From assembly GCF_028550435.1 (NCBI RefSeq), contig NZ_JAQQKV010000002.1:310001-374000 (forward strand): a stretch of DNA of 64,000 nucleotides, read 5' to 3'. Every line of letters starts with the position of its first letter. The stretch's first letter is position 1. The translations under genes were made by a program, and so were the position numbers. This DNA comes from Asticcacaulis machinosus. Lineage in GTDB: Bacteria; Pseudomonadota; Alphaproteobacteria; Caulobacterales; Caulobacteraceae. Of the stretch, positions 8,248-28,949 are shown in pieces. The notes beneath the pieces were generated by a model that was not told where the DNA came from, searched no databases, and saw nothing but the letters and a program-made list of their open reading frames with translations.

Positions 8248-8362
8248 TGCCTTACCTTGCTATCACGGCAAATCCGATGCAGCCGGTTGCCACCATCGGA
8301 AACGTAGGTGACAAATCCTTACATTGCCACCTCAAACACAGTCAAAGAACCTAAAATCGAAA

Positions 8363-9393: not shown

Positions 9394-9425
9394 TATTAAA
9401 GCCTCTTTTTAGCCTGGGACCTCTT

Positions 9426-11748: not shown

Positions 11749-12642
11749 TCAGTATTGACTTATTTCTTTGGAGCCCGACAGGCCCGATATCGTTCCCAGA
11801 TGGAGCGCGCCGCGCAGTATATTGCGCCTGCGCTTCACCGGCGACCATGCCGTCATCGCTGCCGAAGCAAAGCTGAAACCGGCCTTAGCAGCAGCCATCG
11901 CCTGCTCGACCACGACCGGGCGGGTCAGGCCGCCCTCACGGATCAGGCGGCCGTGAGTCTGGCCCGACCGAAAGCGCCGGTCACGCAACCACTTAAAACT
12001 AGCCCGCGCCGGCGGCACCGGCTCTTCGATCCAGGCCTGCCGCGCATAGGCGATTTTACCGCCGCGCCGATAAATCTGCGTGAAGAAATCAGTGTCCTCA
12101 CCACCGCTTTTGCCGCGCGACAGATCAAAGCTTAAGCCCTGAACCTTATCCGAGCGGCGATCCAGCAGAGCATTGCAGGTATAGCCGGTCAGGATGTCAT
12201 CACCCACGATCACCGGATAGGTCGAGTGGAAATCCCCGTCCCTGATCCAGCCCGCGATCCCCTCCGGATAGAGCGCGCGCACCGGCCCCAAAACGGCATC
12301 CGCACCGGCCGCTTCAGCGGTCGTCACCATCTCTTTCAGCCAGCCGGGCGTGACCAGTTCATCGTCATCGATAAACAGGGTATAACGTCCCGTGGCCGCC
12401 TCAAGGCAGGCATTGCGAGCCACCGAAATATTAGCTTTTGGGGCATGAATATAGGTCAGCGGAAACGGCACTTCCGGCCCCATCGCCTCGACGCGGTCTC
12501 TGGCTGACGGTACCTCGTCATTGTCGGCAACGATCACCCGCACGGCATGATCCGACGGCACCTCAAGCGATGCCAGCGAACGCAGGGTGGTGGCAATATG
12601 CTCACGCCGGAACGTACAGATACAGATATCGATATCGGCCAT
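11749..12642 (-). CDS. Family 2 glycosyltransferase, ExoM-like
   Basis: This 297-residue GT2 enzyme starts DICICTFRREHIATTLRSLA, has VIVADNDEVPSARD, ANISVARNACLEAATG and then FIDDDELV, the order and wording seen in ExoM of rhizobial succinoglycan synthesis. ExoM adds a beta-1,4-linked glucose to the lipid-linked intermediate. The assignment as ExoM-like rests on recalled family pattern, so the linkage here stays an inference. It is followed by the nonulosonate genes and preceded by ExoA-like and ExoL-like genes on the same strand, all probably one operon. The start is a clear ATG (MADIDICIC). Confidence 0.82.
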   Translation of the reverse strand: MADIDICICTFRREHIATTLRSLASLEVPSDHAVRVIVADNDEVPSARDRVEAMGPEVPFPLTYIHAPKANISVARNACLEAATGRYTLFIDDDELVTPGWLKEMVTTAEAAGADAVLGPVRALYPEGIAGWIRDGDFHSTYPVIVGDDILTGYTCNALLDRRSDKVQGLSFDLSRGKSGGEDTDFFTQIYRRGGKIAYARQAWIEEPVPPARASFKWLRDRRFRSGQTHGRLIREGGLTRPVVVEQAMAAAKAGFSFASAAMTAWSPVKRRRNILRGALHLGTISGLSGSKEISQY

Positions 12643-12688: not shown

Positions 12689-13711
12689 TTAAGCCGCTTT
12701 AAATTTCAGCTCAAACCACTTTTTCCAGAACCCGACCGACCAGGCGATGTGCATGGTCATGGCGGCATAACCGGACATAAACCCTTCGACCGAACGCGTT
12801 CGCACACCCTCGATCACGGCCAGCCCGCCCCACAGGCACAACCACCCGATCAGCGGCAGGGCGCACACCCACCAGATCGCGGCCAGCGGCGCCATCAGGA
12901 TCGACGGCAGAACCATAGCCGGAATAATCTGGCGCAGGCCCGGCGTCTGCTTATGTTTAAGGATATTCTGGATACGACCGCTGCCATAGCCGCGGTACTG
13001 CTTAAACAGCCCTCTGGCGGTGGTGCGCGGCAGATATTCCATGACGGTTTTCGGCGTCATCCAGATGTAATAACCGATCTTACGTAAGCGAAAATCAAGC
13101 TCAGCATCCTCATTGTGCGCAAAGCTTTCATCATAACCACCCACTTCGCGAAACGCCTTGATACGCATCAACGCGTGGTGGCCGTGATCGACAAATTCGC
13201 CCTTATTGACCACGCGGTGCTTTGAGCCGCCATTGCCGAGCGGGGAGTTTTGCGCGATCGCGACCGCCTTCTGGAACGCGCCCGCGCCGATGGTGTTCAT
13301 CGACACCACGATCGACGCACAGCCGACCTTGCGCGCCTCAAACATCAGTTGCTCGCAAAAATCTTCAGGATAGCTGCCGTGGGCATCGATGCGGATCAGA
13401 TATTCGGCGTCGTCACCGTAGCGTGCGACCGCCAGATTTATACCGGCGCTCTGGATTTTCTTCGGGTTATGCAGCAGCCGCACCGGCGCGCCGTCATCGA
13501 CGAAGCGCCTGACAATATCCTGGGTGCCATCGGTCGATCCGCCATCGGCAACCACAATCAGCGATCCGGCCTCACCTTCGGTGCGCACCAGCCAATCCAG
13601 AACCTTGCCGATATGCGCGGCCTCATTAAGGCACGGCACCACGACCAGCACCTTTTCCGGGCGCACAGGCTCTGCGGACGTTAAATTCACAGCCAGACCC
13701 GCCTCACGCAT
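12689..13711 (-). CDS. Family 2 glycosyltransferase, ExoA-like (copy 1)
   Basis: This 340-residue GT2 enzyme has VLVVVPCLNEAAHIGKVL, VADGGSTDGTQDIV, IRIDAHGSYPEDF (the DXD-type site) and HNEDAELDFRLRKIG. The C-terminal third has hydrophobic segments (PAMVLPSILMAPLAAIWWVC and following), as in ExoA, a membrane-attached beta-1,3-glucosyltransferase of succinoglycan synthesis. A clear paralogue lies at 35402-36439 with the same architecture, including the HGHHA segment. The gene begins eight bases before the end of the ExoL-like gene, with an AGGTGG ribosome-binding site. The sugar transferred is inferred only by family. Confidence 0.84.
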   Translation of the reverse strand: MREAGLAVNLTSAEPVRPEKVLVVVPCLNEAAHIGKVLDWLVRTEGEAGSLIVVADGGSTDGTQDIVRRFVDDGAPVRLLHNPKKIQSAGINLAVARYGDDAEYLIRIDAHGSYPEDFCEQLMFEARKVGCASIVVSMNTIGAGAFQKAVAIAQNSPLGNGGSKHRVVNKGEFVDHGHHALMRIKAFREVGGYDESFAHNEDAELDFRLRKIGYYIWMTPKTVMEYLPRTTARGLFKQYRGYGSGRIQNILKHKQTPGLRQIIPAMVLPSILMAPLAAIWWVCALPLIGWLCLWGGLAVIEGVRTRSVEGFMSGYAAMTMHIAWSVGFWKKWFELKFKAA

Positions 13712-14834
13712 GCGCCACCTGCAAGGCTTTCAGGCGATCAACGAACCCCACACAGTCGTCACGGGTAGCCGTAAACAGAGACGCAGGACACGCGTTCAAT
13801 GCCGCCCGCAAATCCGCAAGTCGATCCGGCGTAAGCGTCTCAAACAGGGCCTTTAACGCCTGCGGTGTGGCCTCATCCAGAGTCAGGCCGATACCATGAC
13901 GGCTGACGAACTTGCCGGTCTCAGTCCCGCTCAGAGCAATCGGCACCGAGCCATGTCGGCTGCCTTCATAGAGCCGGTTGGGCAACAGCCATTTGGAATT
14001 CTGGCCTTCTTCGAAAAAATCAATCGCCCAGGTCAGATCGACCTGCGCATACATATCGCTCAAATCCTCGGCACGATACGGCCCGCCAAAGCCTATATGA
14101 GGCTCAGCCACGATCTGCGCGTCGAAATCCTCGAACTCATTATAGGCGGGCTTACCACGCATAACCACCTTAACCCGGCCATCCATCGCCCGCGTAAAGG
14201 CCGACAGAATCTCCAGCGACTTGACGCACCGCAAGGCCCCGAACCAGCCGATGGTGATAACACCATCCGCAGGTTTGGACGCCGCCATCGCGTTCATCCG
14301 CCCTTCGATATCCAGAACCTTATTTTCCATCAGGAAAACCGGCAGTTTGAGGTTCTGCATCGGTTCAAAGTAATTCTCAACAAAAGCCGGGGAACTGGTG
14401 ACCACCATCGATGCCCGCGACATCAGGCTGCGCTCGGCCCCGCGCAGCAGGGCCCCGATAAAATCACGGCGCAGCAGCAGACGGTGAATATCGAGGCTTT
14501 CGTACACAATGACTGGCGCAGGCGCAAACCGTCTGGCGACCTGACGGGCCAGAAACAGCATTTCCAGATTGCGAGCAATGATAATGTCCGGGCGCTCCCC
14601 GCCCAAAGCACGGATCAGGGACGGCGCACTGGCAATCGTTTTGGCGGCGCGATGGGCAAAGGCACCGTTGCGGGTTTCACCCAGATCGATGACCTTATCC
14701 GCAGAACCTGCCGCTGGTTTTGGCCCCCGCCGAAAACCCGCCAGATAGACCTGCGCTCCGCCCGCCTCAAGCATAAGGGTTCGACGGCGCACCGCCGCAT
14801 CTTCCAGATCATGCACAAGATAGAGTACCCGCAT
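13704..14834 (-). CDS. GT-B glycosyltransferase, ExoL-like
   Basis: This protein of about 376 residues starts RVLYLVHDLEDAAVRRRTLML and contains GGAQVYLAGFRRG, a pattern I associate with ExoL-type transferases of succinoglycan synthesis. The later part has ITIGWFGALRCVKSLEIL and LPNRLYEGSRHGSVPIAL, equivalent to the nucleotide-sugar region of GT4 enzymes. The ATG at 14834 was preferred over a GTG two codons upstream. It leads the minus-strand series ExoL, ExoA, ExoM, phosphatase, NeuB fusion, CMP-sugar synthetase. The lasso-peptide exporter gene ends 145 bases upstream on the same strand, so read-through from the lasso operon into this EPS operon is possible. Confidence 0.78.
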   Translation of the reverse strand: MRVLYLVHDLEDAAVRRRTLMLEAGGAQVYLAGFRRGPKPAAGSADKVIDLGETRNGAFAHRAAKTIASAPSLIRALGGERPDIIIARNLEMLFLARQVARRFAPAPVIVYESLDIHRLLLRRDFIGALLRGAERSLMSRASMVVTSSPAFVENYFEPMQNLKLPVFLMENKVLDIEGRMNAMAASKPADGVITIGWFGALRCVKSLEILSAFTRAMDGRVKVVMRGKPAYNEFEDFDAQIVAEPHIGFGGPYRAEDLSDMYAQVDLTWAIDFFEEGQNSKWLLPNRLYEGSRHGSVPIALSGTETGKFVSRHGIGLTLDEATPQALKALFETLTPDRLADLRAALNACPASLFTATRDDCVGFVDRLKALQVAHA

Positions 14835-14978
14835 GGTCACACTAATGGATTCCGGAAAATTAAAAACCTATACGATTCGCGTAAACGCTGAGTAAGATTA
14901 GCCCATGAACTCAAACAATTTATGAACAGGACGCGGTAATCCTTGCCCAGACAGGATTTGCGCCCCGTAGCCAACGCC

Positions 14979-16736
14979 TTACCCGACACCATGACTTAAG
15001 ACCCGCCCACCTTCAACCGTGATCACCTTATCGGCGCATTCGACCACGACCGGATTATGGGTGATCAAAAGCACCGTCATCTGACCGCGCAAAGCATCAA
15101 TCGTCGACAATATGCCCTGAGTATTCTCACGATCGAGCGCGCTGGTCGATTCATCAAGGATCAACAGGGCCGGCTGACGCAGCAGGGCCCGCGCCAAAGC
15201 GACCCGCTGACGCTCCCCGCCCGACAGCTTGATCCCGCCGTCACCGACCGGTGTATCCAGCCTCTGCGGCAGACGCTCTATGAAGGCCGCCGCCTGCGCC
15301 TGTCGCAAGGCCTGCCACATGTCATCCACCGTGGCATGGGGTGCCGCGATTTTCAGGTTCTCCGCCACGGTTGCCGACAGCAGATAGGTTTCCTGCGGCA
15401 CGTAAGCAATGTGGGTGCGCCATGACGGACCGTGGGCAGCCTCTAAGGCCACGCCATCAATCAGGATGCGGCCGCTATCGGGCATCAACAGGCCCATGAC
15501 CAGATCGGCCATAGTGCTCTTGCCGCCGCCGGACGGGCCGACAATCGCTGTGATCTGTTTGGCGGGCAGGCTGAAACTGACGGCATCAACCGCCAGATGA
15601 TCACCATAAGCAAAACTGACCGTCTCAAAATCGAGGCTGTGTTTTAGACCCGCCGGGGCCGGGGTTGCCGCCGCCTGCGGGATTTCCACGGCGGCGTCAC
15701 AGTCGGCCTTGACACGCTGCATGGTCTCAAAGGCCGGTAGGTTGATAATGGCGTTCTGCAGATGATCCTGCGTGCCGGTAAAGCGCGGCGACAGGCGCAT
15801 AAAGATGACCAGCAGCACGATGATGCGCGAAAACGGCATGGCATAGACGGCATAGGCGACATAGATAAACAGGCACACCATGACCGCGCTCAAGATTTGA
15901 AACAGGGTCGTCCCCAGCGAATTGATGCGGGTATAACGCATCAGGTCGCCGCGCATCCGCTCCAGTGTCCCGTTCAGTTCAGCGATATAGCGCGGTTCAG
16001 CATTGAAGCTTTTGGTGACCTTAAGGCCTGCCAGAAAATCGCTGATGGTGCGGTACTGGCGCTGGCGCTCGGTCGTCAGCTTATCGCCAAAGATCGCGCC
16101 CTGCTTACGGATCGGGCGCAGAGCCACAAACACCAAAGCCCCGGCCACCGCCGCAATCGCCGTCATCTGCCACGAGATCATCAGCGACAGCAGCATGTAG
16201 GCACACAGGAACACCCCGTTTTGAATCAACAGGAACAGACTTGCCGTCGCCGTCTGCACCCGGTCAATATCACCGGTCAGGACGTGATCGAGGTCCGCCG
16301 TGCGCTTGCGCGCCACCGCTGACCAGCGCGCCCGTGAGATGCTGGCGAACAGGTCGATGCGCAGGCGGTTGACCGTATCAACCAGCAGCGCCGACATATA
16401 GATATTCTTGAAGCGCGCAAACAGTGCTCCGATAGTCACCACCGCGACGAACACAACCAGAATCAGCCACAGTTCAATCTGAAACGACGCCCCCAACACC
16501 GGCGCCAAGAGCCCAGTCGGCAGGTCGAGCACCGTGCCCCCGCCCTGCGCGCTGATGAACTGCAACAGCGGCAACAGCAGCAGCAGCGATACCCCTTCGC
16601 TGAAACTGCCCAAAATCAGGAAGACGACCGACAGGATTGAGCGTTTGCGTGACACCGACAGCACATAGGCCGCCAAAGCCCGGCAGCGCTGCCAGGTCTT
16701 AAGGCCAGTCGTTATGGAAGAATCAGCCAAGGTCAT
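14979..16736 (-). CDS. Lasso peptide ABC exporter (D protein)
   Basis: This 585-residue half-transporter has an N-terminal membrane domain with about six hydrophobic segments and a C-terminal ATPase. The ATPase carries the Walker A motif (VGPSGGGKST), the Q-loop (AYVPQETYLLSATVAENL), the signature LSGGERQRVALARALL and the Walker B region LLILDESTSALD. Its ATG overlaps the end of the kinase-like gene by 14 bases, so it is the last gene of the lasso operon. Lasso clusters commonly encode such an exporter, which secretes the threaded peptide and gives immunity. No leader-cleaving C39 peptidase domain is visible, as expected when the B2 protein removes the leader. Confidence 0.88.
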   Translation of the reverse strand: MTLADSSITTGLKTWQRCRALAAYVLSVSRKRSILSVVFLILGSFSEGVSLLLLLPLLQFISAQGGGTVLDLPTGLLAPVLGASFQIELWLILVVFVAVVTIGALFARFKNIYMSALLVDTVNRLRIDLFASISRARWSAVARKRTADLDHVLTGDIDRVQTATASLFLLIQNGVFLCAYMLLSLMISWQMTAIAAVAGALVFVALRPIRKQGAIFGDKLTTERQRQYRTISDFLAGLKVTKSFNAEPRYIAELNGTLERMRGDLMRYTRINSLGTTLFQILSAVMVCLFIYVAYAVYAMPFSRIIVLLVIFMRLSPRFTGTQDHLQNAIINLPAFETMQRVKADCDAAVEIPQAAATPAPAGLKHSLDFETVSFAYGDHLAVDAVSFSLPAKQITAIVGPSGGGKSTMADLVMGLLMPDSGRILIDGVALEAAHGPSWRTHIAYVPQETYLLSATVAENLKIAAPHATVDDMWQALRQAQAAAFIERLPQRLDTPVGDGGIKLSGGERQRVALARALLRQPALLILDESTSALDRENTQGILSTIDALRGQMTVLLITHNPVVVECADKVITVEGGRVLSHGVG

Positions 16737-17628
16737 GTTCTATCATAGCCACAGCTTCGCCTAAGCGCTCCAGCGAATCCGGCACAATCAACCGCCGGGC
16801 CACACCTAATTCGGCCAGATAAGCACATTGCTGCATAAAACCGGGCGCACTTCCGGCTGACAAGGCGTCTTTGCCGAAACGGATCAGATAGGAAAAGCGC
16901 ATCAGGGCACGAAAGGCCTCGACCGGACTTAAGTCAATCACCTGCGCCTGCGGGCCCCGTTCCAGCACATATAGACGTCCCGGCACGGCATAGTCATTGG
17001 AAAAATGCTCACTGACGCTGTGCTGACGTTTATCAAAGCCCGGCACGTCGATCATCTCCAGCGGCCGCGCCTTCTCAATCGCTACCGTCGCCGCCGATTC
17101 ATCAGTCAGCTTCATCTGCGGAAAGCCCGGCAGAATGCGCACGTCCGGCTTGAAATCAAAGGCCAGCACATCGTCGGTCAGCAACGGATAGCCCTTACCG
17201 ACCAAAGCCCCGGCGGTCGTCGATTTTCCGGCGCGCTTGTCGCCCAGAAAGCCCGCGCCCTTACCGTTAATCAGCACCGCGCTGGCGTGCAGCACCATCA
17301 GGCCACGCACATGTAAAAGCATGGCCATCACCGGCCCCAGCAGCGGCAGGCGCACGATCTTTTCCGGCACATCAGCGCGCGCATCGACTACGATTTCAGA
17401 CGTGCCTTTGATCTCGAACTTACCGACCGCGGCCCAGTCCAAAATCTGAAGATCGCGGCTGAACTCAAAGAAGGTTCCCGGCGCCCCCACCGGCAGATCA
17501 CGCCCGATCGATTCGCACCGGATCACCAGATCGGCGGCGTCATTATCTGACGGCAAAAGTTCCGGCAGTTCGATCTCGGAATGGATCGTCAGCCCATAGG
17601 CGGTGTGGCGATAAAGAGGCTTAGTCAT
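16723..17628 (-). CDS. HPr kinase-like lasso peptide kinase (K protein)
   Basis: This protein of about 301 residues resembles the C-terminal domain of HPr kinase/phosphorylase. It has HASAV at residues 114-118, a P-loop GDKRAGKST at 129-137 and TDDVLAF at 151-157. It lacks the N-terminal domain of true HPr kinases. Homologues in kinase-type lasso clusters (paeninodin PadeK, ThcoK) phosphorylate the side chain of the C-terminal Ser of the precursor, and the precursor here ends in Ser. The ATG at 17628 was chosen over one ten codons upstream because GGAAAG precedes it and the homology begins there. A role in nitrogen or carbon control is unlikely, given its place between the cyclase and the exporter genes. 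Confidence 0.82.
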   Translation of the reverse strand: MTKPLYRHTAYGLTIHSEIELPELLPSDNDAADLVIRCESIGRDLPVGAPGTFFEFSRDLQILDWAAVGKFEIKGTSEIVVDARADVPEKIVRLPLLGPVMAMLLHVRGLMVLHASAVLINGKGAGFLGDKRAGKSTTAGALVGKGYPLLTDDVLAFDFKPDVRILPGFPQMKLTDESAATVAIEKARPLEMIDVPGFDKRQHSVSEHFSNDYAVPGRLYVLERGPQAQVIDLSPVEAFRALMRFSYLIRFGKDALSAGSAPGFMQQCAYLAELGVARRLIVPDSLERLGEAVAMIEHDLG

Positions 17629-17718
17629 GAAAGACAGCTTTCCAGTGAGCGCACGCATTAAATTTTACAAAAACGCCACTCCTGCCGGGCTCAGACCACG
17701 GCACCCCCAAATTGTGTA

Positions 17719-19590
17719 TCAATTTGAATGGGTTTTACCTTGGCTGTGCCGCAGCCAGAGCGATAAGGCGACGGTTCGCCATACCGCTTGCAAATCGTAG
17801 GCCGCAACCTTCGCCCCCTTTTGCCGCAACCTTTTGAGTGATTTTCGCACCCGTTCAAGATCGACGAAGCTCGCTACATTATCACGGTTATGCTCAATCA
17901 CATCCCGCATCAGGTCTTCGTGATGTGCCAACAGGCCCGATGCGATATGGGGCGCGAAATCAAACTTGCTGCGCCGCCACTGAACCTTGGGCGGTAAAAC
18001 GCCCTCCATCGCCTGACGCAGGATCAGGCGGACATGGCCCTGATCAAGCTTGGCCTCTGACGGTAGCGACAGACAAAACTCAACCACCCGCTTATCGAAG
18101 AACGGAAACCGCGCTTCAAGTCCGGCTCCGGCTGCGGCCGCTTCAATCACTTCAAGGCTTGAAGCCAGCCCCGGCGATTGCAAAAACGCCGTATGCTGCG
18201 ACGCTTCGTCCTGATGCAGGGTGCGACGATCCGCTGCCGCGCGCGCACGAAATTCAGGCGTCAGCAATACGTCTCGATCCGCCTTGGGCCAGCGTTTTTG
18301 AACCCAGCCTGCCACGCGACGCAGATAGTGCGCACCCTTGAAACGCCCATAGCGAATGAACAGAAGAATAAACAGCCCCAACCGCCCCTGCCCGTACAGA
18401 CCTGAGAAGGCACGGGTCTGGATCCACAACTCTCGCCAGCGGCCTTGCTGTGCCAGTTCGTGGAACCGGCCATAGCCGTGCGACAACACCTCATCGCCGC
18501 CGTGGCCCTCGAAAACCACACGAAAGCCTTCATCCCCGACCCGCTGGAACAGAGCGCTGGTCATACGCAGGCCCGGCGCGCCAAACAACCGCCCTTCAAG
18601 CGCCAGCAGCGCCTCGAAATCACCAAACGGCGCATAACCATCCATCGCCACATGACGCGGGCGGAAATGGGCGTGGGCGATACCGGCATCTATATAGTCG
18701 CGCTCACTCAACTCCGGCGTTTTATCGAACACCACAGAAAAACTGTCGACAGGGTCATTGGGCTGCAACTGACTGGCCAGACAGGCGATCGAGGTCGAAT
18801 CCAGCCCGCCACTGAGCAGGGCCGCCACCGGTTGATTTGAACGCAGACGGCAACGCACCGCCTCGGTCAGCAGGGCCCGTAAAGCCGCCGGATTTTTGTC
18901 GGTTATGGTTTCATCCGGCGCCGCCTGCCAATAGGACGTCAAGGTCGGCGCCAGATCAGACCCGGCGCTCAAACTATGGCCCGGCGGCACCCGCCACAGG
19001 CCGTCATAAACCACCCGATGGTCGCGCGGCAGTTGGCCGGTCATGAAATCGGCAACGTCAGCCTCAATCAGTCCAGCTTTCGACAGATCGGCAAAGGGTG
19101 CGCCCGGTGCGGCCAGCACCTTGGGCTCACTGGCCAGCGCCAGACCGGCGCTGTCGGCACGATAAAACAGAGGCTTTACGCCCATATGGTCGCGGGCGGC
19201 AAAAATGCGCTGCGTGTCGGCATCATATATAATGACAGCAAAATCACCGATGAAGTGATGCACACAGCCCTCACCCCAGCGCTGCCACGCCGCCAGAATC
19301 AGCGCCCCTTCGGACAGGCTGGCGTCCGTGATGCCAAGATCGGACAGAAGTTCGGGACGGTTATCCAGCCGCGCATCGACCACGGCGCGCACCGTACCGT
19401 CTTCAAAAATGGTTGCCTGTGGCGGATCTTCGGCCAAGGTGCGCATCAGACCTGCACCCAAAGCCCGCCCGCCATCCGCCCAAACCGCGATCCCGTCCGG
19501 CGCACGATAGGGCATGGCCCGCAACAGGGTTAACGCCATGTCATGCGCTGAGGCTTCAGATTTCAGAAATATACCGGCAATCGCGCTCAA
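17719..19590 (-). CDS. Lasso peptide macrolactam synthetase (C protein, asparagine-synthetase-like)
   Basis: This 623-residue protein has the class II asparagine synthetase layout: an N-terminal Ntn-type half and a C-terminal ATP-pyrophosphatase half with the PP-loop LLSGGLDSTS (SGGLDS at 260-265). The catalytic Cys that follows the initiator Met in glutamine-using AsnB is replaced by Ser (start M-S-A-I-A-G-I-F), typical of lasso C proteins, which adenylate the ring Asp or Glu and need no ammonia. It would form the bond between the core N-terminus and the Asp side chain. The start is a TTG sharing bases with the TGA of B2, implying translational coupling. True AsnB is unlikely because of the missing Cys and the setting. 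Confidence 0.88.
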   Translation of the reverse strand: MSAIAGIFLKSEASAHDMALTLLRAMPYRAPDGIAVWADGGRALGAGLMRTLAEDPPQATIFEDGTVRAVVDARLDNRPELLSDLGITDASLSEGALILAAWQRWGEGCVHHFIGDFAVIIYDADTQRIFAARDHMGVKPLFYRADSAGLALASEPKVLAAPGAPFADLSKAGLIEADVADFMTGQLPRDHRVVYDGLWRVPPGHSLSAGSDLAPTLTSYWQAAPDETITDKNPAALRALLTEAVRCRLRSNQPVAALLSGGLDSTSIACLASQLQPNDPVDSFSVVFDKTPELSERDYIDAGIAHAHFRPRHVAMDGYAPFGDFEALLALEGRLFGAPGLRMTSALFQRVGDEGFRVVFEGHGGDEVLSHGYGRFHELAQQGRWRELWIQTRAFSGLYGQGRLGLFILLFIRYGRFKGAHYLRRVAGWVQKRWPKADRDVLLTPEFRARAAADRRTLHQDEASQHTAFLQSPGLASSLEVIEAAAAGAGLEARFPFFDKRVVEFCLSLPSEAKLDQGHVRLILRQAMEGVLPPKVQWRRSKFDFAPHIASGLLAHHEDLMRDVIEHNRDNVASFVDLERVRKSLKRLRQKGAKVAAYDLQAVWRTVALSLWLRHSQGKTHSN

Positions 19591-20006
19591 GGGATCTGTG
19601 CACCCATCCGGGTCAGCAGCTTATAGCGCTCAAGCTCACCCGATTCATTGCCGACCACGACCTGATCGCCGCTCATGACCCAGGCATGGGCCAAAAGTCC
19701 CTTATCGCCCTCTTTATCGCTCTGGGCCACACCGACACATAAGGATGAGCCAAAGCCATGCCGTTTCAGAATATATTGCGCCGTCATCGCCCGCGACAGG
19801 CAGGTCGCTCCCGGAATAGGTTTGGCGGTTTTAAACACAAACCAGCCGACACGGCGGGCTTCCCACGGCGGGGCGGGCGGGCCGTCGATTTCACGGATGT
19901 GTTGCTTGATTCGCTTGTACCCAAAGGCAAGGATATAGGCGCGGAAATAGAGGTTCAGCGCGAAGTATTTGGTTCCCGACAGGATATTTTTCCAAGCCGT
20001 CTGCAT
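19587..20006 (-). CDS. Lasso leader peptidase (B2 protein, transglutaminase-like)
   Basis: This protein of about 139 residues has the transglutaminase-like fold of lasso B2 proteases. The catalytic Cys lies in PIPGATCLSRAMTAQ (about Cys69) and the His in LLAHAWVM (about His107), followed by a likely Asp in SGDQVVV. B2 cuts the leader from the precursor after B1 delivers it. The ATG at 20006 was chosen; a TTG at 20063 overlapping the end of B1 would add 19 residues and cannot be excluded. The gene ends in TGA that overlaps the TTG of the C gene. B1 and B2 are separate genes here, unlike the fused B protein of the best known proteobacterial clusters. Confidence 0.85.
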   Translation of the reverse strand: MQTAWKNILSGTKYFALNLYFRAYILAFGYKRIKQHIREIDGPPAPPWEARRVGWFVFKTAKPIPGATCLSRAMTAQYILKRHGFGSSLCVGVAQSDKEGDKGLLAHAWVMSGDQVVVGNESGELERYKLLTRMGAQIP

Positions 20007-20046
20007 GGCTTTGTGTATCCTAGCTTGGGCCGGCCGGTAAGCGCGT

Positions 20047-20331
20047 TTAAGCGCTGACAGCAATCAGGCCCTGTTCTGACAATTGCGTCAGCAAAGTCTG
20101 CAAATCCCGTTCCAGAACCTCAGGGCTGGCATCATAGGCCCCGGTCATCGCGGTTAAAATATCACCCAGCGTTTTGGCAGATCCTTCGATCTGCGACCAG
20201 ACATAGGCACCGGTCTGATTCAGATTAAAATAGCTGCCGGTGCGTAAATCCAGCAGAGCCAGCCCACCGGCCAGTTCCGTGCCGACCACATCGCCCGACG
20301 CCGTAATGATTGAGGAATTCACCAGCGCCAC
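20047..20331 (-). CDS. Lasso RiPP recognition element (B1 protein, PqqD-like)
   Basis: This protein of about 94 residues has the PqqD-like pattern of RiPP recognition elements: an N-terminal beta region (ITASGDVVGTELAGGLALLDLRTGSYFNLNQTGAYVW), then helices (GDILTAMTGAYDASPEVLERDLQTLLTQLSEQGLI). B1 binds the precursor's leader and hands it to B2 and C. I place the start at the GTG at 20331 (VALVNSS). The longer frame to an ATG at 20394 would begin inside the attenuator hairpin, and its first 20 residues have no family resemblance. It is the first processing gene after the precursor. Confidence 0.84.
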   Translation of the reverse strand: MALVNSSIITASGDVVGTELAGGLALLDLRTGSYFNLNQTGAYVWSQIEGSAKTLGDILTAMTGAYDASPEVLERDLQTLLTQLSEQGLIAVSA

Positions 20332-20378
20332 GCAACCACTCCGGATTAAAAAATTTGAAACTATGATTATATATGTAA

Positions 20379-20412
20379 AAATGCCCGGCGACATATAACC
20401 CGCCGGGCATTT
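20379..20412 (-). terminator. Attenuator-like hairpin between lasso precursor and processing genes
   Basis: Arms at 20379-20390 and 20401-20412 pair perfectly over 12 bases (aaatgcccggcg with cgccgggcattt) around a ten-base loop. On the minus strand the stem is followed by a short T run, the form of an intrinsic terminator. It lies after the precursor stop at 20440 and before B1. In lasso operons such a partial terminator is known to let precursor mRNA exceed that for the enzymes. Confidence 0.75.
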
Positions 20413-20439
20413 TAGAACTCTTTACTCACAGGCCTGGCC

Positions 20440-20586
20440 TTAGGAGAAGGTCAGATCCGCAAACGGCGTACCGATCGGGAACGTCGCGTCGAGCGTACCA
20501 CCGGTACCCGTGTTCTGGGTGGTGGTTTCAAAGTCGCCAACCTTAGCTACGGTCGGGGCTTCGTAAGCAGCTTTAACTTGCGTCAT
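20440..20586 (-). CDS. Lasso peptide precursor (A protein), predicted C-terminal Ser phospho-acceptor
   Basis: This 48-residue peptide has a leader with Y8-E-A-P11-T-V-A-K-V-G17-D-F, matching the YxxPxLxxxG motif bound by B1 proteins. Only one registration satisfies both a Thr at leader position -2 and a ring of 7-9 residues closing on Asp33: cleavage after TTTQ, giving a core of residues 25-48. That core starts NTGTGGTLD with a nine-membered Asn1-Asp9 ring and has a 15-residue tail ending FADLTFS. The C-terminal Ser fits the kinase gene in the cluster. The ATG at 20586 has GGAGA about eight bases upstream; a longer frame to 20661 is unlikely. The alternative cleavages giving Gly1 (ring of 7) or Thr1 (ring of 8) lack the -2 Thr. 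Confidence 0.88.
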   Translation of the reverse strand: MTQVKAAYEAPTVAKVGDFETTTQNTGTGGTLDATFPIGTPFADLTFS

Positions 20587-20750
20587 TTCAAAAATCTCCG
20601 TAATGGGGCGAACCCCTTTGGATAACGAAAAAAAACTCTCATATTCAGGGCTTAAAGTCAAGCCTAAGGATTTCTCAACATAAATGATGTATAGTGGTAA
20701 TTACTACTTTGCCGCCGTTTTTATAAAATCTTTTCATTGGGGATAAGCGC

Positions 20751-21788
20751 ATGAGCCTTCTGTGTCTGAATCTGGCCAAAATGCTTGAGGATGGACACGT
20801 CGCCGCCGCCCCCTTGGCCGACAGAAAAACATTTGAAAATACAATAGCTTGCGCTAAAAAAAACAAGCTGAACGTACTGCTTGAGCGCACAATGACGCCC
20901 TCAGATCATGACGCAGCGCAATATAAAGACTTCGTAAATGAAAACCGCAGCGTCGCATTAACCAATTCCCGCATCCTGCATCTGATTCACAAAACTCACC
21001 TGACACTAGAATCTGCGGGCATTAACCACGTATTTTATAAGGGCCCGCTGCAACAAAAAATTCTCTACGGCGACTTTTTTTCGAAAAAAAGTGTCGATGC
21101 TGACCTGCTGGTGGCCAGAAAAGACTTCTCCCGCGCCCGCGAAGTGCTTGTTGCCGCTGGTTTTTCAGTTCCGGCAGAATGTCACCGTTTGTGGTGGCGA
21201 ATCTTTCTGGGCGAGCAACACCTGTTTCGTGAGGGTTCAGCCCCCCATTCGGTAGATCTTCACCACCGCCTTCAGCAACCCGGATCGCCCGCACCGCGCC
21301 ACATCGACAGATTTATGAGTGATTCCGTTAAGGTTAATTTGGGCTCTCTTAATATACCCACGCCGAATATTAAGTATATCGTGCTTATCTCGGCGATGAA
21401 TCTTGTGAAAGCTATATATAACCGCCAACCTGGCGGAAGTTATGCTATGGATCTTCTGACGGCACTGCGGCGCATGACACCGCATGAAATCAAGGCCGTG
21501 CGCGACGAAGCGCAGTCGCAGGGGTTGAATAACACCGTTCGCTTTTCGTCGCGCCTGTCGGCATTAGTCTTTGGCGTTGCCGATCTTTTCTCGACAGCAC
21601 CCCTGACGTTTCCATTCGACGAAGATCAGATGAGTGCGTTATTATTATCGCCTGAAACCGCGACAGATCACATGCCGCGCCGTCGGGTCATGCTGAGCTA
21701 TTTATCGGATCACCCTATAAGTGATTTCCCGCGCGAAACCTTGCGCTGGCTGGCCTCAGAGACAGCGCGCATCACACCCTGGTTCTGA
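20751..21788 (+). CDS. Lasso-associated nucleotidyltransferase family protein
   Basis: This 345-residue protein resembles the uncharacterised nucleotidyltransferase family (NTP_transf_5 type). It has HVFYKGPLQQKILYGD at about residues 93-108 and SVDADLLV at 114-121, where Asp116 and Asp118 are the likely metal-binding pair. Members of this family recur next to kinase-type lasso clusters, where their role is unsettled; they might modify the peptide or a cofactor. It is transcribed divergently from the precursor gene with about 165 bases between, suggesting shared control. The ATG is preceded by GGGGA at a suitable distance. It is more AT-rich than the downstream co-polymerase gene. Confidence 0.75.
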   Translation: MSLLCLNLAKMLEDGHVAAAPLADRKTFENTIACAKKNKLNVLLERTMTPSDHDAAQYKDFVNENRSVALTNSRILHLIHKTHLTLESAGINHVFYKGPLQQKILYGDFFSKKSVDADLLVARKDFSRAREVLVAAGFSVPAECHRLWWRIFLGEQHLFREGSAPHSVDLHHRLQQPGSPAPRHIDRFMSDSVKVNLGSLNIPTPNIKYIVLISAMNLVKAIYNRQPGGSYAMDLLTALRRMTPHEIKAVRDEAQSQGLNNTVRFSSRLSALVFGVADLFSTAPLTFPFDEDQMSALLLSPETATDHMPRRRVMLSYLSDHPISDFPRETLRWLASETARITPWF

Positions 21789-21956
21789 TTCGGATCAAGG
21801 TTCGGGCCCTCCGCAATTTATTTATCATTCTGTTAACCGCTGAGACGCTGTGTTAACACTCTGGTCATAAATCCGACCTGAGAATGATCTGCCACGCCTG
21901 CGCGCGCCGGCCATATTCAGGCGCGCCCTCAATATTCGGTTGAAAAGAATTTTTAA

Positions 21957-24116
21957 ATGAAGCCTGAAACCTTTGACATGGCCGCGGAGCGTGAGGACAT
22001 ATTGCAGATTCGGCTTGATCTGCGCTCCATCGGCTTTGATTACCGACGCTATATCTGGATATTTGTGCCGGTTTTCATCATGATATTCGGTCTGGTGTTC
22101 GGCTATTTCGCCACGCGCCCCAAGCTTTATACCGCAACCTCGATGGTCGCCCTTGATGCCCGTAACGTGGTCAGTCAGGAAAATCAGGCCCTGATACCCA
22201 TCGGTGAGGATTATTCGGCGGAATCCATTCAGATTAATACCGAGCTTGTCTTATTGCATCAGCTCTCACTGGCGGAACGGGTTGTGTCAGCCCTGAAGCT
22301 CGATCAGCTCCCGAAGGTTAAGCCCGCGCCGCAATCCGCCAAGGAGAGCGCAAAATCACAAGCGCCGGTCGAGACCTTATCCCCGCAGGCCCAGCAGGCC
22401 CGCCTTCGCCGCAACATCGCCGGCAGCCTGTACTCGGGCCTTAAGATTGTCCGTCATGGCAGCACGCATGTCGTCTATATTTCCTATTCAGCCCCGAACC
22501 CGGCTCTGGCCGCCGATGTCGCCAATGCGTGGGGGCAGCAATATATCGCGCAGAAAATCGATATAACTCAGGCGGAACTGCGCGACGCGGGCAGCGGCAT
22601 GGCCAAAAGGCTCGAAGAATTGCGGGGCGAAGTTCTGGCGCGCGAACAGGCCGTTGCCAGTTATAAAATCGCCAACAATCTGATGACCACCGGCAGCGCC
22701 ACCCTGACCGAGGGCGAAATCTCCGCCTTAAACCGCCAGATCACGGATACAAAACTCACCCTGGCCGAAAAACAAGCCCGCCTGAGCACCGCCCGCACCC
22801 AGATCAAAGGACTTGGACTCACCGCCGATGACTCCAGCCCCGTCAATTCTCCCGTTTTGAACACATTGCGCGTCAGACGTGCTCAGCTCACCCGCCAGGT
22901 CGCCGATCTTCAGTCCATCTACGGCCCGCGCCATCCCAACGTGATCGCGGCTCAAGGTCAAGTGGAAGATATTGATCGCCAGATCCGCAGCGAAGGCCAC
23001 AGGATTGTCGCCAATCTTCAGGCTCAGGTCGATATAGAACAGCGCCGCCTTGGCGGCACTCAGGCCAATCTCAATTCCAGCATGGGCGATTTGGCCAATG
23101 CCAATGCCGCCAGCGTTGATCTCGGCCAGCTTGAAGCCGATGCCGAGGCGGCACAAGGCGTATTTGAGCACTACCTTTCTTTGTACAAACAAGCGCTTAC
23201 GGCCAATCCGGCCCAGAATGTCAAGGCGCGGATTCTGTCGGAAGCCAAGGCGCCTGCGACGCCGTCTTCACCGGATCTGGGCCTCGGTTTTGGTCTGGCC
23301 CTGGCCGCCGCCAGTATAGGCGGCGCAGGTGCGGTTCTGCTGCGGCGCATGTTTGAAACCGGCATCATCGTCCCCGGTGATATTGGCTATAAACTCGGCC
23401 AGCCCCATCTGGCCACACTGGTCAGCGTGCCGGCGGCAGCTAAGGATAAGGCTCAGCCGCTTGCCCTGCCCGATTATGTTTTACAAAACCCAAGCTCCGC
23501 GTTTGCCGAAGGCTTAAGAGCGCTCAGAGCCGCTATACTGCATATGGCCCCTGACCACGGCGGCGTTATTGCCATCACCTCCCCCCTGCCGTCAGAGGGA
23601 AAATCGACGACTTCGGTGTGTCTGGCCAAGATCATGGCCATGTCCGGCCAATCGGTCATTGTCGTCGAGTGTGACCTGCGCCGCCCCGGTCTCAGCCGCG
23701 CGCTTAACCGGCGGGCCGAAAACGGACTGCTGGAGGTTTTAAGTGGTGACTTAAGCCTTGAGGACGTTGTCCTGACGGATGACACCGGGATCGATTATCT
23801 GCTGGCGCCGCGCAAAAACCGTGATGTCACCGGCGTGTTTGAGGCGGCGATCATGGACCGGTTGCTGACCTATCTGCGTCACAAATACGATATTGTTATT
23901 CTGGATACCCCGCCGGTGCTGGCGATTGACGAAACGCAGATTCTGGCGGCCAAGGCGGATCAGACGGTCATGTTGGTACGCTGGTCAAAAACGCCGCTCA
24001 AGGCGGTGCGTGCAGCGCTTGATAAACTCAAGCAGGGCAGCATTATCGGCATTGCCCTGACCCAGATGGATGAACGGCTGTTTTCAAAAATCACGATGTC
24101 TGATTACCGGGCCTAA
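21957..24116 (+). CDS. Wzc/ExoP-type polysaccharide co-polymerase with BY-kinase domain (copy 1, reduced Tyr tail)
   Basis: This 719-residue protein has a Wzz-type N-terminal part with a membrane segment at about residues 33-52, a long coiled-coil region (about 205-410), a second membrane segment near 441-463 and a C-terminal bacterial tyrosine kinase. The kinase has Walker A SPLPSEGKST (542-551), Walker A' VIVVECDLR and Walker B IVILDTPPVL. Such proteins control chain length and export by cyclic autophosphorylation of a C-terminal Tyr cluster. Here the tail ends SDYRA with a single Tyr, unlike the two paralogues, which have seven each. It is a single-gene unit convergent with copy 2. The ribosome-binding site is weak. 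Confidence 0.87.
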   Translation: MKPETFDMAAEREDILQIRLDLRSIGFDYRRYIWIFVPVFIMIFGLVFGYFATRPKLYTATSMVALDARNVVSQENQALIPIGEDYSAESIQINTELVLLHQLSLAERVVSALKLDQLPKVKPAPQSAKESAKSQAPVETLSPQAQQARLRRNIAGSLYSGLKIVRHGSTHVVYISYSAPNPALAADVANAWGQQYIAQKIDITQAELRDAGSGMAKRLEELRGEVLAREQAVASYKIANNLMTTGSATLTEGEISALNRQITDTKLTLAEKQARLSTARTQIKGLGLTADDSSPVNSPVLNTLRVRRAQLTRQVADLQSIYGPRHPNVIAAQGQVEDIDRQIRSEGHRIVANLQAQVDIEQRRLGGTQANLNSSMGDLANANAASVDLGQLEADAEAAQGVFEHYLSLYKQALTANPAQNVKARILSEAKAPATPSSPDLGLGFGLALAAASIGGAGAVLLRRMFETGIIVPGDIGYKLGQPHLATLVSVPAAAKDKAQPLALPDYVLQNPSSAFAEGLRALRAAILHMAPDHGGVIAITSPLPSEGKSTTSVCLAKIMAMSGQSVIVVECDLRRPGLSRALNRRAENGLLEVLSGDLSLEDVVLTDDTGIDYLLAPRKNRDVTGVFEAAIMDRLLTYLRHKYDIVILDTPPVLAIDETQILAAKADQTVMLVRWSKTPLKAVRAALDKLKQGSIIGIALTQMDERLFSKITMSDYRA

Positions 24117-24196: not shown

Positions 24197-26401
24197 CTAT
24201 TCGGTGTAGTAGCCCTTATAGGCCTTATAGTAGAAGCCGGAGTCACCGTAGGCATATTTGGCCTGCTGGTTGACGTCGATCTGGCTGAGGGCCACACCGG
24301 CCATCGGCGCATCGGCACTGATCAACAGATCAAGAGCTTTCTGAGCCGCGTCACGCGGCGTCTTGCGCCAGTGTACCAGCATGACCACCGCATCGACCTT
24401 ACGCACCAGAATGCGGGTATCAACCACCGGCAGAACCGGCGCGGTATCCATAATGACCACATCAAAGCGCTCTTTGAGTTCAGTGATCAGGTCGTCCATA
24501 GACGGATCACCGAATACGTCACGGGTGGTGTAGCTTTCCGGCTTGACCGGCAGGATCTTGATCTTACCGCCAGGGCCATCGGTCAGGGCCTGATCAACCT
24601 TGGCCGTACCGTCAAGCACTTCCAGAAGACCGGCTTCAGGCTGATCCTGAACATAGGCATTGATCGACTTACGGCGCAGGTCGCAATCTACCACAACCAC
24701 CGTCTGCCCCGCCATAGCGACAATCTGGGCCAGACACATCGACGCCGTGGTCTTACCTTCGCCGGGCAGGCAGGAGGTCAGGGCGATGACACGGGCCTGT
24801 TCGCCGTCACGGGTATAAAGCAGGGACGCTCTCAGGCTGCGGAAGCCTTCGGCAAAGACCGACAGCGGCTTCTCCGTCACATAGGTGACCGGATCGGTAC
24901 GCTTATGGCCCTTTTCGACCGTCGAGGCCAGATCCGGCAGACCGGCCAGATAAGGCTGGCGCAGATGGCGCTCAACGTCCGTTGAGGTGGTAAGTACGCT
25001 GTCGAAGGCGCGACGGCCCAGCACAGCGGCGGCACCGGCCCCAAAGGCCCCTACCAGCGCCAAAGCGACGCTTAAGGAGACCTTGGGCGACGATGGGCCC
25101 ATCGGCAGCTTAGCCTTAGCCACGATACGGGCGTCGGACTTGGCCATACCTTCCTGCGACGAGGTTTCCTTGAAACGCTCCAGATAGGATTCGTAGAGGC
25201 TGCGGACAGCCTGGGCATCGCGCTCAAGCTCGTTCAGGCGTACCTGAGCGCGGTTGTTACCGGCCAGAACACCGCGGGCAGAGCCTACGCTGCCGGCCAG
25301 AGACGAGGTGCGCTGGCGCTGAACCTGAACCTGGGCTTCGAGGTTAGAGATGATACGGGCGATTTCGTTGCGAATCTGCTGATCGATATCGGCCTTTTCA
25401 CGCTTGGCCTTGATGATTTCAGGGTGCAGCGGGCCGTAACGGGCTTCCAGCTCAGCCACGCGGCGGCTGACCTCGGCGCTTTGCGAGCGCAGATTGGCGA
25501 CCACACCGGAATTCAGGGCTTCACCGACATCTTCACCGGTCGAACCGGCGGCAAGCTGACGGCGGGCCGTGGCCAGACGGGCTTCGCTTTCGGCTTCGTC
25601 TACCCGCACCACAGCCAGTTGCTGGTTGAGGCTGGAGATTTCCTGCTCGGTCAGGGTGGAGCCGGTCGAGCTCATCAGATTATTGGCGATCTTATATTGC
25701 TGAACCGCACGCTCGGCAGCTTCCACCTGACCGCGCAGTTCATCGAGGCGCGAGTCGAGCCAGCCAGATGCACTGCGGGTGGCGGCAAATCGGGCTTCCA
25801 TCTGCTGTGCCAGATAGAGATTGGCCCATTCATCGGCAATACGGGCGGCTTTTTCCGGCGATACGCTGGAGTAGCTGATATTAATGACGCGGGTTGTCCC
25901 TTCACGACGCACCGTCAGGCCGCCGAGGACGATATTGGTGATGACCTGCTGGCGGGCCTTTTTCTCAAGCGGCGACAGAGCCGCTTCGGGGCGCTGAGGC
26001 TCGGTCACCAGACCAAAATATTTCTTACGGGGATTGAGGAACGGATTGAACTCAGGATCCTTATCCAGTTCCAGTTGCTCGATGGCCATTTCAGCCAGAG
26101 ACGCGGACTTCAGAAGTGCCACTTCGGTATCGATAGTCGCCGCATCCTGCGGCAAATCCGACAACACCTGCTCGCTGGCATTGGTAATATTAACCTGACG
26201 CGGATCCAGCATGACCGCCGATGAGGCGACATACTTAGGCGTCTGGGACAGCAAGGGGAACAGTATCAGCACGAACGCCGCGCAAAACACTACCCCGAAT
26301 AAAAGAGAATAGCGCCGAAAGTCAGCGATCAGACCGCGAAGGTCGAGACCCGCTTCATCGTCGGAACTACTTTTTCCATAATTCGTATCACGCGTTTTCA
26401 T
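24197..26401 (-). CDS. Wzc-type co-polymerase with BY-kinase domain (copy 2)
   Basis: This 734-residue protein has two membrane segments (about residues 33-55, and one just before the kinase domain, with the run ALALVGAFGAGAAAV), a coiled-coil periplasmic region with VQVQRQRTSSLAGSV, and a C-terminal tyrosine kinase. Walker A is SCLPGEGKTT, Walker A' is VVVVDCDLRRKS and Walker B is VVIMDTAPVL. The tail (AKYAYGDSGFYYKAYKGYY) has seven tyrosines, the usual autophosphorylation cluster. It is the third gene of the minus-strand series wza-like, beta-barrel, kinase. It is closely related to copy 3 at 36506 throughout and more distantly to copy 1. It should act with Wza and Wzy in EPS chain-length control and export. 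Confidence 0.9.
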   Translation of the reverse strand: MKTRDTNYGKSSSDDEAGLDLRGLIADFRRYSLLFGVVFCAAFVLILFPLLSQTPKYVASSAVMLDPRQVNITNASEQVLSDLPQDAATIDTEVALLKSASLAEMAIEQLELDKDPEFNPFLNPRKKYFGLVTEPQRPEAALSPLEKKARQQVITNIVLGGLTVRREGTTRVINISYSSVSPEKAARIADEWANLYLAQQMEARFAATRSASGWLDSRLDELRGQVEAAERAVQQYKIANNLMSSTGSTLTEQEISSLNQQLAVVRVDEAESEARLATARRQLAAGSTGEDVGEALNSGVVANLRSQSAEVSRRVAELEARYGPLHPEIIKAKREKADIDQQIRNEIARIISNLEAQVQVQRQRTSSLAGSVGSARGVLAGNNRAQVRLNELERDAQAVRSLYESYLERFKETSSQEGMAKSDARIVAKAKLPMGPSSPKVSLSVALALVGAFGAGAAAVLGRRAFDSVLTTSTDVERHLRQPYLAGLPDLASTVEKGHKRTDPVTYVTEKPLSVFAEGFRSLRASLLYTRDGEQARVIALTSCLPGEGKTTASMCLAQIVAMAGQTVVVVDCDLRRKSINAYVQDQPEAGLLEVLDGTAKVDQALTDGPGGKIKILPVKPESYTTRDVFGDPSMDDLITELKERFDVVIMDTAPVLPVVDTRILVRKVDAVVMLVHWRKTPRDAAQKALDLLISADAPMAGVALSQIDVNQQAKYAYGDSGFYYKAYKGYYTE

Positions 26402-26539: not shown

Positions 26540-27820
26540 TTAGTACTGTACGCCCAATGTGAACTTAACACTGTTATGGGTGTAGTCCCGGAATGCCGCC
26601 AAACCGTCAGATCCGAGCTTGGAGTGCATATATTCGCCCTTAAGGCTCAGACGACGGTTGATCAGATAACGGCCGCCCAGGCTCAGGCTGTCGCGCTTAT
26701 CGGCACGGTCAAGGCCGCGGTACTCATCGTCAAAATGGAACACACCGCCGGAGATGACAAAGTTCCGAAGCAGTTCATGGTCGACGGTCACACTGAGCTG
26801 GGTCGACAGGAAGCCCGATGCCCCAGCATAGGGGGTTTCATTGATGGAGCGACCGGCATTGAAATTCACGGTCGTCAGACGGGTCGGGAACCATTCGACC
26901 TGCGCACTGAACGAGGTGCCGCGCGCAGTTGAGTAGGCGAAGTTGTCATAGTCCTGCATCAGGTAGCCGGCCCGGACTTCGCCGCGCAGCAGATCAGTCA
27001 GGTCAAAGGCCGCACCAATAGAGATATTATAGCCGTTTGAATTACGATCAGCGGCAGCTAAGGCCTGATCATATTTACGCTCATTATAATCATAAGAGAT
27101 GAACACTGAGGTATCAGGGCTCAGGGCGTAGTCACCACGTATGGCAAAACGGTTATATTTCACATCGCGGTTGTCCTGATCCTGAATCCCGCTTGGGAAA
27201 TTGACCAGATCCGTCGTGCGCACATCGGTGTAGTCCAGCGCAGAGACGCTGCCGTCAACACCCAGACGGAAGCGGTTGAAGGTCATCTGCCCGCCCAGGT
27301 TAAAGCCGTCACTCTTGACCTCAACCGGCTCAACGATGTTTTCGCTCAACGACGGATCGCCGCGCGATTCGCTGGTGCGGCCCAGATTGATACCCCCATA
27401 AATATTGGAGAAGCGCGTGACATCCGCGCGGCCATAGACATTGGCACCCCAGTCTTCGGTGTTCTGGGTATCATTATCGCCGTAGCGGCGGATATTAGTA
27501 TATACCGATCCCAGCAGTGCATGGCGGCTCCAGCGCGACTGGGCGCGCACTTCCGGCCGGGCCGTCAAGATCATGTCATCTTCTTTTGCGGTATCGCTGA
27601 AGAAGACGTTGTCCGTGCGCTCAAGCCCCAGATCGACCTTAGGATAGATGTCAAAACCGCCGGTACGGATGCCCAATGGCTCATAGCCTGGCGGCACCCG
27701 GCTGGCGACCGACGAATTTTTGTCCTTTTCCTGTACGAAATAGTCTTGGGCTCCGGCTATACCGGCCGTTGCGCACAGAGCCGGTATCAGGGTGAGCGTG
27801 AGGATTTTTTTGGTTTGCAT
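26540..27820 (-). CDS. Outer-membrane beta-barrel protein of the EPS export system (BBP2-like)
   Basis: This protein of about 426 residues has a signal peptide (MQTKKILTLTLIPALCATAGIAGAQ) and then alternating amphipathic strands ending ...THNSVKFTLGVQY, with an aromatic last residue as in beta-barrel outer-membrane proteins. The text GFDIYPKVDLGLERTDNVFF near the start is typical of the BBP2-type family found beside Wza/Wzc genes in alphaproteobacteria. It may form or assist the outer-membrane pore for the polymer. I used the ATG at 27820 because the signal peptide begins there; one three codons upstream at 27829 is equally possible. It lies between the wza-like and kinase genes of the first export operon. 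Confidence 0.75.
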   Translation of the reverse strand: MQTKKILTLTLIPALCATAGIAGAQDYFVQEKDKNSSVASRVPPGYEPLGIRTGGFDIYPKVDLGLERTDNVFFSDTAKEDDMILTARPEVRAQSRWSRHALLGSVYTNIRRYGDNDTQNTEDWGANVYGRADVTRFSNIYGGINLGRTSESRGDPSLSENIVEPVEVKSDGFNLGGQMTFNRFRLGVDGSVSALDYTDVRTTDLVNFPSGIQDQDNRDVKYNRFAIRGDYALSPDTSVFISYDYNERKYDQALAAADRNSNGYNISIGAAFDLTDLLRGEVRAGYLMQDYDNFAYSTARGTSFSAQVEWFPTRLTTVNFNAGRSINETPYAGASGFLSTQLSVTVDHELLRNFVISGGVFHFDDEYRGLDRADKRDSLSLGGRYLINRRLSLKGEYMHSKLGSDGLAAFRDYTHNSVKFTLGVQY

Positions 27821-27942
27821 AGTGTCCATGCCAAAGAGTGAAGGCTTTGAAGAAAAAGCCACGATGAGAGGCTAAATGTAAAAACGGTCTGCTATAACAG
27901 GCCATATAATATTGAACGCTTAACTAAGTGTTTGTGGCGTCG

Positions 27943-28530: not shown

Positions 28531-28863
28531 TGTTTCTGCTCTTGTCCCTAACGTCTCATAGTTAATTGTGCGGTGCAATATCGATTTTTGACTCAAACCA
28601 GAACTAATGATAGTGAAATAATTGCAAAAAGCTGTTAAGTCCAAGCAAAACAAAATCGGCGCATCAAAACGATGCCCAAGTCTTCATTTTTGGCCAAAGG
28701 GCTTCATTTTTGACACATCAGGTTACGACCTTGATAATTGAAATGATTAATCAACCCGTTGGGGAATCTCGTTGCGGGACGCCCTGTTAACCAACAATTT
28801 TTGGCAAGTTTTTATATTCTGATCGCCATCAGTTGCGCAAACAGCGCAAGCTGGATTTTTTTA

Positions 28864-28878: not shown

Positions 28879-28949
28879 ATTGCGGGACAAATCGTTGACA
28901 GTTTGCCCGTGAATTTAAATACTCACTGTGCAGTTTTTGGAGAGTGATC

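Follow-up and report, generated by a model that had tools for sequence, protein, structure and literature searches.

A kinase-type lasso peptide gene cluster inside an exopolysaccharide locus

In a 64,000-nucleotide stretch of the Asticcacaulis machinosus genome (contig NZ_JAQQKV010000002.1, positions 310,001 to 374,000; hereafter the window), positions 14979-21788 carry a full lasso peptide gene set comprising a precursor A, a split B1/B2 pair, a cyclase C, a kinase K, an exporter D, and a nucleotidyltransferase N. The first six genes occupy the minus strand from 14979 to 20586 in the order A, B1, B2, C, K, D, N lies on the plus strand, and exopolysaccharide genes flank the cluster on both sides. 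A sequence-only reading of the window had named all of these parts, and family searches, joined for K by fold comparison, found each of them in place. The cluster consists of the following features.

20440..20586, minus strand: precursor A, leader MTQVKAAYEAPTVAKVGDFETTTQ, core NTGTGGTLDATFPIGTPFADLTFS (NF033521 lasso leader, 26.6 bits, cut-off 19)
20376..20410, minus strand: hairpin and T run between A and B1 (ATGCCCGGCG / CGCCGGGCAT), a possible attenuator
20047..20331, minus strand: B1, discrete RRE (PqqD-like), GTG start (PF05402, 1.5e-19)
19587..20063, minus strand: B2, leader peptidase (NF033537, 60 bits, cut-off 33)
17719..19590, minus strand: C, lasso cyclase (AsnB family, no Cys2; NF033535, 3.6e-150)
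16723..17658, minus strand: K, HprK-like precursor kinase (His-Lys-Asp-Asp residues invariant; fold match to PEPCK and HprK/P)
14979..16736, minus strand: D, MsbA-like ABC exporter (PF00005, PF00664)
20751..21788, plus strand: N, PF14907 nucleotidyltransferase (75.6 bits, cut-off 31.2), divergent from A and codirectional with a Wzc gene at 21957

A leader-bearing precursor, an RRE-type B1, a B2 peptidase, and an AsnB-like cyclase together define the locus as a lasso biosynthetic cluster. The catalytic Cys and His of B2 were retained in 12 of 12 aligned proteins. C scored 501.6 bits against the lasso cyclase/AsnB model, slightly below the model cut-off of 525, and retained the SGGLDS and GGDE motifs. 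The absence of a Cys following Met, remarked on in the sequence-only reading, was borne out by the C N-terminus MSAIAG, which is read from a TTG codon overlapping the B2 stop; among ten clusters with an aligned C N-terminus only that of genome G616 had Cys2, and thus lacking it is typical of the group, not peculiar to the window. The minus-strand genes had also been described as overlapping, which is correct for D/K (14 nt) and B2/C (4 nt) but not for A/B1 and C/K, where there are gaps of ~108 nt (with the hairpin inside) and 60 nt, respectively. Overlap of B1 and B2 hinges on the choice of start codon, as an alternative ATG for B2 lies further in, near 20007. The hairpin was recognized by inspection and by folding of relatives, most of which had stable hairpins at the same place; a general terminator scan missed it and gave no excess above shuffled sequences.

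The precursor and the kinase

The leader residues Tyr(-17), Pro(-14), and Thr(-2) and the core residue Asp9 were the same in each of 13 precursors, which represent 12 lineages. Conservation of a B1-binding motif, on which the earlier proposal had been staked in advance, thus held in all 12 lineages: in another kinase-type lasso system, too, RRE contact is ascribed to Tyr(-17) and Pro(-14) (PMC10368454), and the window leader carries these residues as YEAP (YxxP type). We placed the cut after the residue that follows Thr(-2), because only then do all 13 precursors line up. A seven-residue ring starting from Gly3 of the core was rejected because of this Tyr(-17)/Pro(-14)/Thr(-2) register together with Asp9. 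Core position 1 was Asn, His, Ala, Ser, Gly, or Thr, and ring closure on Asn1, His1, or Thr1 is predicted. The C-terminal residue was Ser in 12 of the 13 precursors, including that of the window, in whose core the sole Ser is the last residue. The Sulfitobacter plasmid (L103) also carries a second precursor at 6738-6866 (minus strand), which lies on the opposite strand near transposases, has Asp9, and ends in TTP without a C-terminal Ser.

By sequence, K matched the C-terminal domain of HPr kinase weakly, below curated cut-offs, making it the weakest-supported part of the cluster. However, its alignment retained His124, Lys145, Asp162, and Asp163, the His-Lys-Asp-Asp set described as catalytic in lasso kinases (PMC9266682) and diagnostic here of a kinase-type lasso cluster, and its AlphaFold model, with a mean predicted local distance difference test score (pLDDT) of 90.7, matched PEPCK and HprK/P folds. 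A sequence search of solved structures returned no match for K or N.

In a tree of HprK-like proteins, K belonged to one clade (98/94 support) that spans Caulobacterales, Mesorhizobium, and plasmids of Rhodobacterales and excludes both Bacilli sequences along with most of the remaining proteins sampled. Branches inside the clade were long and partly resolved, and the Mesorhizobium K nested among Caulobacterales sequences. Seven of the 25 congeneric genomes carried the clade kinase, in keeping with the earlier description of the cluster as unusual for this group, and an eighth genome had a distant kinase. Elsewhere it occurred in other Caulobacterales families, on plasmids in Paracoccus sp. MC1862 and Sulfitobacter indolifex, and, in a scan of genome contigs that listed at least six loci, in Mesorhizobium amorphae.

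The clade is linked to exopolysaccharide genes

Three sets of observations tie this clade to polysaccharide loci. First, all 11 independent clade clusters with enough flanking DNA lay among exopolysaccharide genes, in differing order and orientation; the 42-kb Paracoccus plasmid consists mostly of polysaccharide and lasso genes. Second, as a matched control, we compared the positions of all B2 (PF13471) genes in 31 genomes with those of Wza. In the clade, 11 of the 13 B2 genes had Wza within 25 kb, compared with 6 of 18 B2 genes linked to other kinases and none of the 15 kinase-less ones (Fisher p ~1e-7, or 6e-6 with five near-identical loci collapsed, neither value being corrected for phylogeny). 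The two remaining clade genes are on contigs without Wza, one of 8.7 kb (G616) and one, also short, that carries Wzc, barrel, and Wzy-like genes (G114); several kinase-less B2 genes are likewise on contigs without Wza, only some of whose lengths were checked. Third, we examined ten further loci with K scores >165 bits after the idea had been written down. All five with scores >250 bits lay in polysaccharide loci, four of them from one genus with sequences near the Mesorhizobium cluster and one (G1195) from another family. Among the five scoring 167-184 bits, one (G946) did so by the criterion as written, for a total of 6 of 10; the 250-bit line was drawn after the scores were seen.

The link to polysaccharide is therefore a property of this clade and not of all kinase-type clusters, a broader rule excluded by the 6 of 18 other kinase-linked genes and the single weaker later match. 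What the sequence-only reading had taken from one genomic place as a hint of a surface or biofilm connection is now a conserved association, stronger than its author could have known. Chance location was rejected on the basis of the kinase-less control. Vertical inheritance of one fixed locus is unlikely as the sole cause, given the differing gene order and orientation and the nesting of the Mesorhizobium kinase within Caulobacterales. A requirement of the cluster for polysaccharide production was also rejected: sister species carry similar loci without it, and it is thus an accessory.

Polysaccharide loci are hot spots of exchange, and an ordinary secreted antibacterial or signaling lasso peptide might simply ride in such variable islands without any joint function. 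Two of the clusters are on plasmids and have transposases or partition genes close by, the K tree crosses taxonomic orders, and frequent gain and loss has been inferred for related systems of Bacilli (PMC13381572). We nevertheless consider hitch-hiking of this kind doubtful, as the kinase-less lasso clusters of the same genomes do not share the location, the association persists across different gene orders and in the later sample, and two specific glycosyltransferases accompany the cluster (see below).

Besides many glycosyltransferases, the exopolysaccharide locus of the window encodes Wzx and Wza, three Wzc proteins (two of them next to N and one more distant), an initiating sugar transferase, and an outer-membrane barrel. 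Several of these genes have the following coordinates.

5746..7236, plus strand: Wzx-like flippase
21957..24116, plus strand: Wzc-like polysaccharide co-polymerase/tyrosine kinase
24197..26401, minus strand: Wzc-like polysaccharide co-polymerase/tyrosine kinase
26540..28653, minus strand: outer-membrane barrel BBP2_2 and Wza-like Poly_export protein
28944..29675, plus strand: initiating sugar transferase (Bac_transf)

NeuB-like, cytidylyltransferase, and alpha-2,8-polysialyltransferase-like genes at 7231-11108 suggest that the window exopolysaccharide contains a nonulosonic (sialic-like) acid. In other genomes (G683, G857, G599, G066, and G049), distant HprK-like kinases with B1/B2/C-like genes (L182/L183, L184, L170, L056, and L060) also lie near Wza, so that the tie to polysaccharide loci may extend to several distinct peptide systems.

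Because HprK-like and PF14907 proteins occur in other exopolysaccharide loci too (for example, in G683), and N of the window adjoins a Wzc gene on the same strand, K and N could serve the polysaccharide pathway as mere neighbors of the lasso genes. This explanation is very improbable in our estimation. Across most of the clade K is flanked by C and D within the lasso operon, nearly all precursors end in Ser, and lasso peptides are the substrates of PsmN and of homologous kinases (PMC9266682).

A nucleotidyltransferase and a glycosyltransferase pair accompany the cluster

Most of the clade has retained N; its Lys-Gly, Asp-x-Asp, LGE, DxH, and QQxG positions did not vary, and it is a conserved component of the cluster rather than a side note. 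A PF14907 nucleotidyltransferase gene conserved across the clade beside a kinase-type cluster is also a feature shared with the pseudomycoidin type. According to two reviews, PsmN, an annotated nucleotidyltransferase, is required for the addition of one or two hexoses to the phosphoserine of pseudomycoidin, by a reaction whose true nature is unclear (PMC9266682, PMC8498205); by analogy, N may have a PsmN-like activity. The N model (pLDDT 89) matched the nucleotidyltransferase folds of MenT1 (E 6e-5) and ANT(2'')-Ia (E 1e-3) and part of FKRP (E 1.8e-3). The presence of FKRP, which uses CDP-ribitol, among the better matches would fit a phospho-transferase of the FKRP/LicD kind, moving a phospho-sugar or phospho-alditol from a CDP donor, rather than a hexosyl transfer enzyme. 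We judge this assignment unlikely: MenT1 and ANT(2'')-Ia score better, the FKRP alignment is partial (TM-score 0.29 by N length), the fold alone does not specify the donor, and the PsmN work is reported to have found hexoses (PMC9266682). Compared with close relatives (L047-L050), window positions 20751-24116 stand out in that N is 74% and the adjoining Wzc 65% similar, versus 89-95% for the lasso genes and 97% for the other Wzc, as if N and this Wzc had been exchanged together.

Downstream of D lie three further minus-strand genes.

13704..14840, minus strand: lasso-associated GT4-like glycosyltransferase (PF13579)
12689..13711, minus strand: lasso-associated GT2 glycosyltransferase (PF00535)
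11749..12642, minus strand: GT2 glycosyltransferase, third of a trio in some relatives

Across the 25 congeneric genomes, homologues (E 1e-15) of the GT4-like/GT2 pair were found in exactly the 7 that have the clade kinase, and the other 18 had none; five of the seven are closely related, leaving about three independent cases in the genus. The pair also lies in the cluster region of G584, G672, Paracoccus, and Mesorhizobium-like loci and on a different contig in G114. It was absent from the 20 kb read at the polysaccharide loci of six sister species that lack the cluster.

Relation to known lasso systems

Kinase-type lasso clusters with nucleotidyltransferases, including proteobacterial ones, are already known (PMC8498205, PMC10368454), and the window cluster is of this known kind. 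Its closest described relative in kind is the SyanA/SyanK type of Sphingobium yanoikuyae, with a PsmN-like tailoring gene in addition. That system, compared here through its review descriptions (Zhu et al., 2016, as described in PMC9266682 and PMC8498205), is likewise proteobacterial, with an HprK-like kinase and a precursor ending in Ser; these reviews mention no link to polysaccharide genes. With paeninodin (PadeA/B1/B2/C/K/D), the cluster has in common split B1/B2 proteins, C, a kinase, an exporter, a C-terminal Ser, and a probable nine-residue ring. Paeninodins in the strict sense, however, are restricted to Bacillota and have WxxP leaders (PMC13381572), whereas the window cluster is alphaproteobacterial and its leader is of the YxxP type; none of the Bacilli kinases sampled belongs to its clade. 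We therefore regard it as working alike without filing it as a member; the paeninodin label of the sequence-only reading pointed in the right direction, to a kinase-type cluster with the C-terminal Ser as likely site, but was too specific. Pseudomycoidin has a kinase (PsmK) and nucleotidyltransferase (PsmN) beside its lasso cluster and carries sugars on the phosphate, whereas N of the window is a separate, divergent gene of predicted activity.

A 2026 paper reports that paeninodins and LPPs often co-localize with capsular polysaccharide loci of Bacilli, with HprK-like kinase, NTP transferase, and exporter genes inside these loci, and treats a biofilm connection as speculative and the role as unknown; its main text does not mention Proteobacteria (PMC13381572). 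The window cluster differs in phylum, in its YxxP lasso leader, in the co-occurring glycosyltransferase pair, and in that constancy across its clade was measured. It is also distinct from LPP clusters, which have a SipW-like signal peptidase and no macrolactam cyclase (PMC13381572), in having the cyclase C; no signal peptidase was seen in the annotated window cluster, although no search aimed at one was made. Glycosyltransferases beside lasso clusters of rumen Firmicutes have been listed earlier (PMC7533575). Judging from the open literature that we checked, three features appear to be new: that the linkage extends to a second phylum, that it is constant within a clade when set against an internal control, and that a glycosyltransferase pair co-occurs.

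The benenodin/astexin-type clusters usual in Caulobacterales are lasso clusters of another design, with a B protein of 219-222 amino acids, an Atxe2 isopeptidase, a TonB receptor, and no kinase. The contrast drawn with them earlier is upheld within the same genome, where two other lasso clusters (L167 and L168, at ~729 kb and 1093 kb of G000:C1) combine B proteins of this length with a TonB receptor and an isopeptidase of the Atxe2 family; one of their precursors is a match to the benenodin family, and inspection of the 20 kb surrounding each cluster turned up no exopolysaccharide genes. The window cluster has exopolysaccharide genes on both sides in place of an adjacent isopeptidase and TonB receptor.

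A proposed pathway to a surface-acting lasso peptide

We propose that the cluster is probably a kinase-type lasso accessory module of the exopolysaccharide locus, with a surface-acting, phospho-glycosylated product. The YxxP leader would be bound by B1, and K would phosphorylate the C-terminal Ser of the linear precursor, as deduced from PadeK and SyanK. B1/B2 would cleave after Thr-Gln, and C would close a nine-residue ring from the alpha-amine of Asn1 to Asp9, giving a cysteine-free, 24-residue lasso. By analogy with PsmN, N would then place a glycosyl or related group on the phosphate, which the two lasso-associated glycosyltransferases might extend, and D would export the product. The neutral monoisotopic masses calculated for the window product are 2382.138 as a lasso, 2462.104 with phosphate, and 2624.157 with phosphate and a hexose, against 2400.149 for the linear peptide. 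The most likely product is thus a C-terminally phospho-glycosylated lasso peptide that would act with the polysaccharide at the cell surface as a matrix-bound or matrix-directed component. Precedents exist for the chemistry assigned to both K and N (PMC9266682, PMC8498205).

Several observations weigh against this proposal. The chemistry of K and N is assigned by analogy, and BsfK, another lasso kinase, phosphorylates Ser3 rather than the C-terminus (PMC10368454). The precursor of G584 (L154, 19126-19269) ends in FSN, leaving the conserved Ser penultimate; N of Sulfitobacter and of G733 matched weakly; the glycosyltransferase pair was not seen in the stretches read for four clade loci (G010, G733, G596, and Sulfitobacter); and the linkage counts are inflated by related genomes.

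A bolder variant has N and the glycosyltransferase pair building a covalent bond through a sugar-phosphate on the C-terminal Ser, joining the lasso to exopolysaccharide or to a lipid-linked precursor. We think this improbable; if true, a bacterial polysaccharide would be capped or cross-linked by a knotted peptide that resists proteases.

Implications

Linkage of an alphaproteobacterial lasso clade to exopolysaccharide genes, crossing orders, parallels the 2026 report on Bacilli, and its occurrence in both groups makes a shared surface function likelier than chance placement. Because close relatives of this gene set are almost always found among polysaccharide genes, the peptide probably has a role alongside the sugar coat of the cell or is bound to it. 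A, K, N, and the glycosyltransferase pair are concrete candidate genes for this connection and, if the proposal is true, a lasso peptide within the biofilm matrix would put the knotted scaffold to a new biological use.

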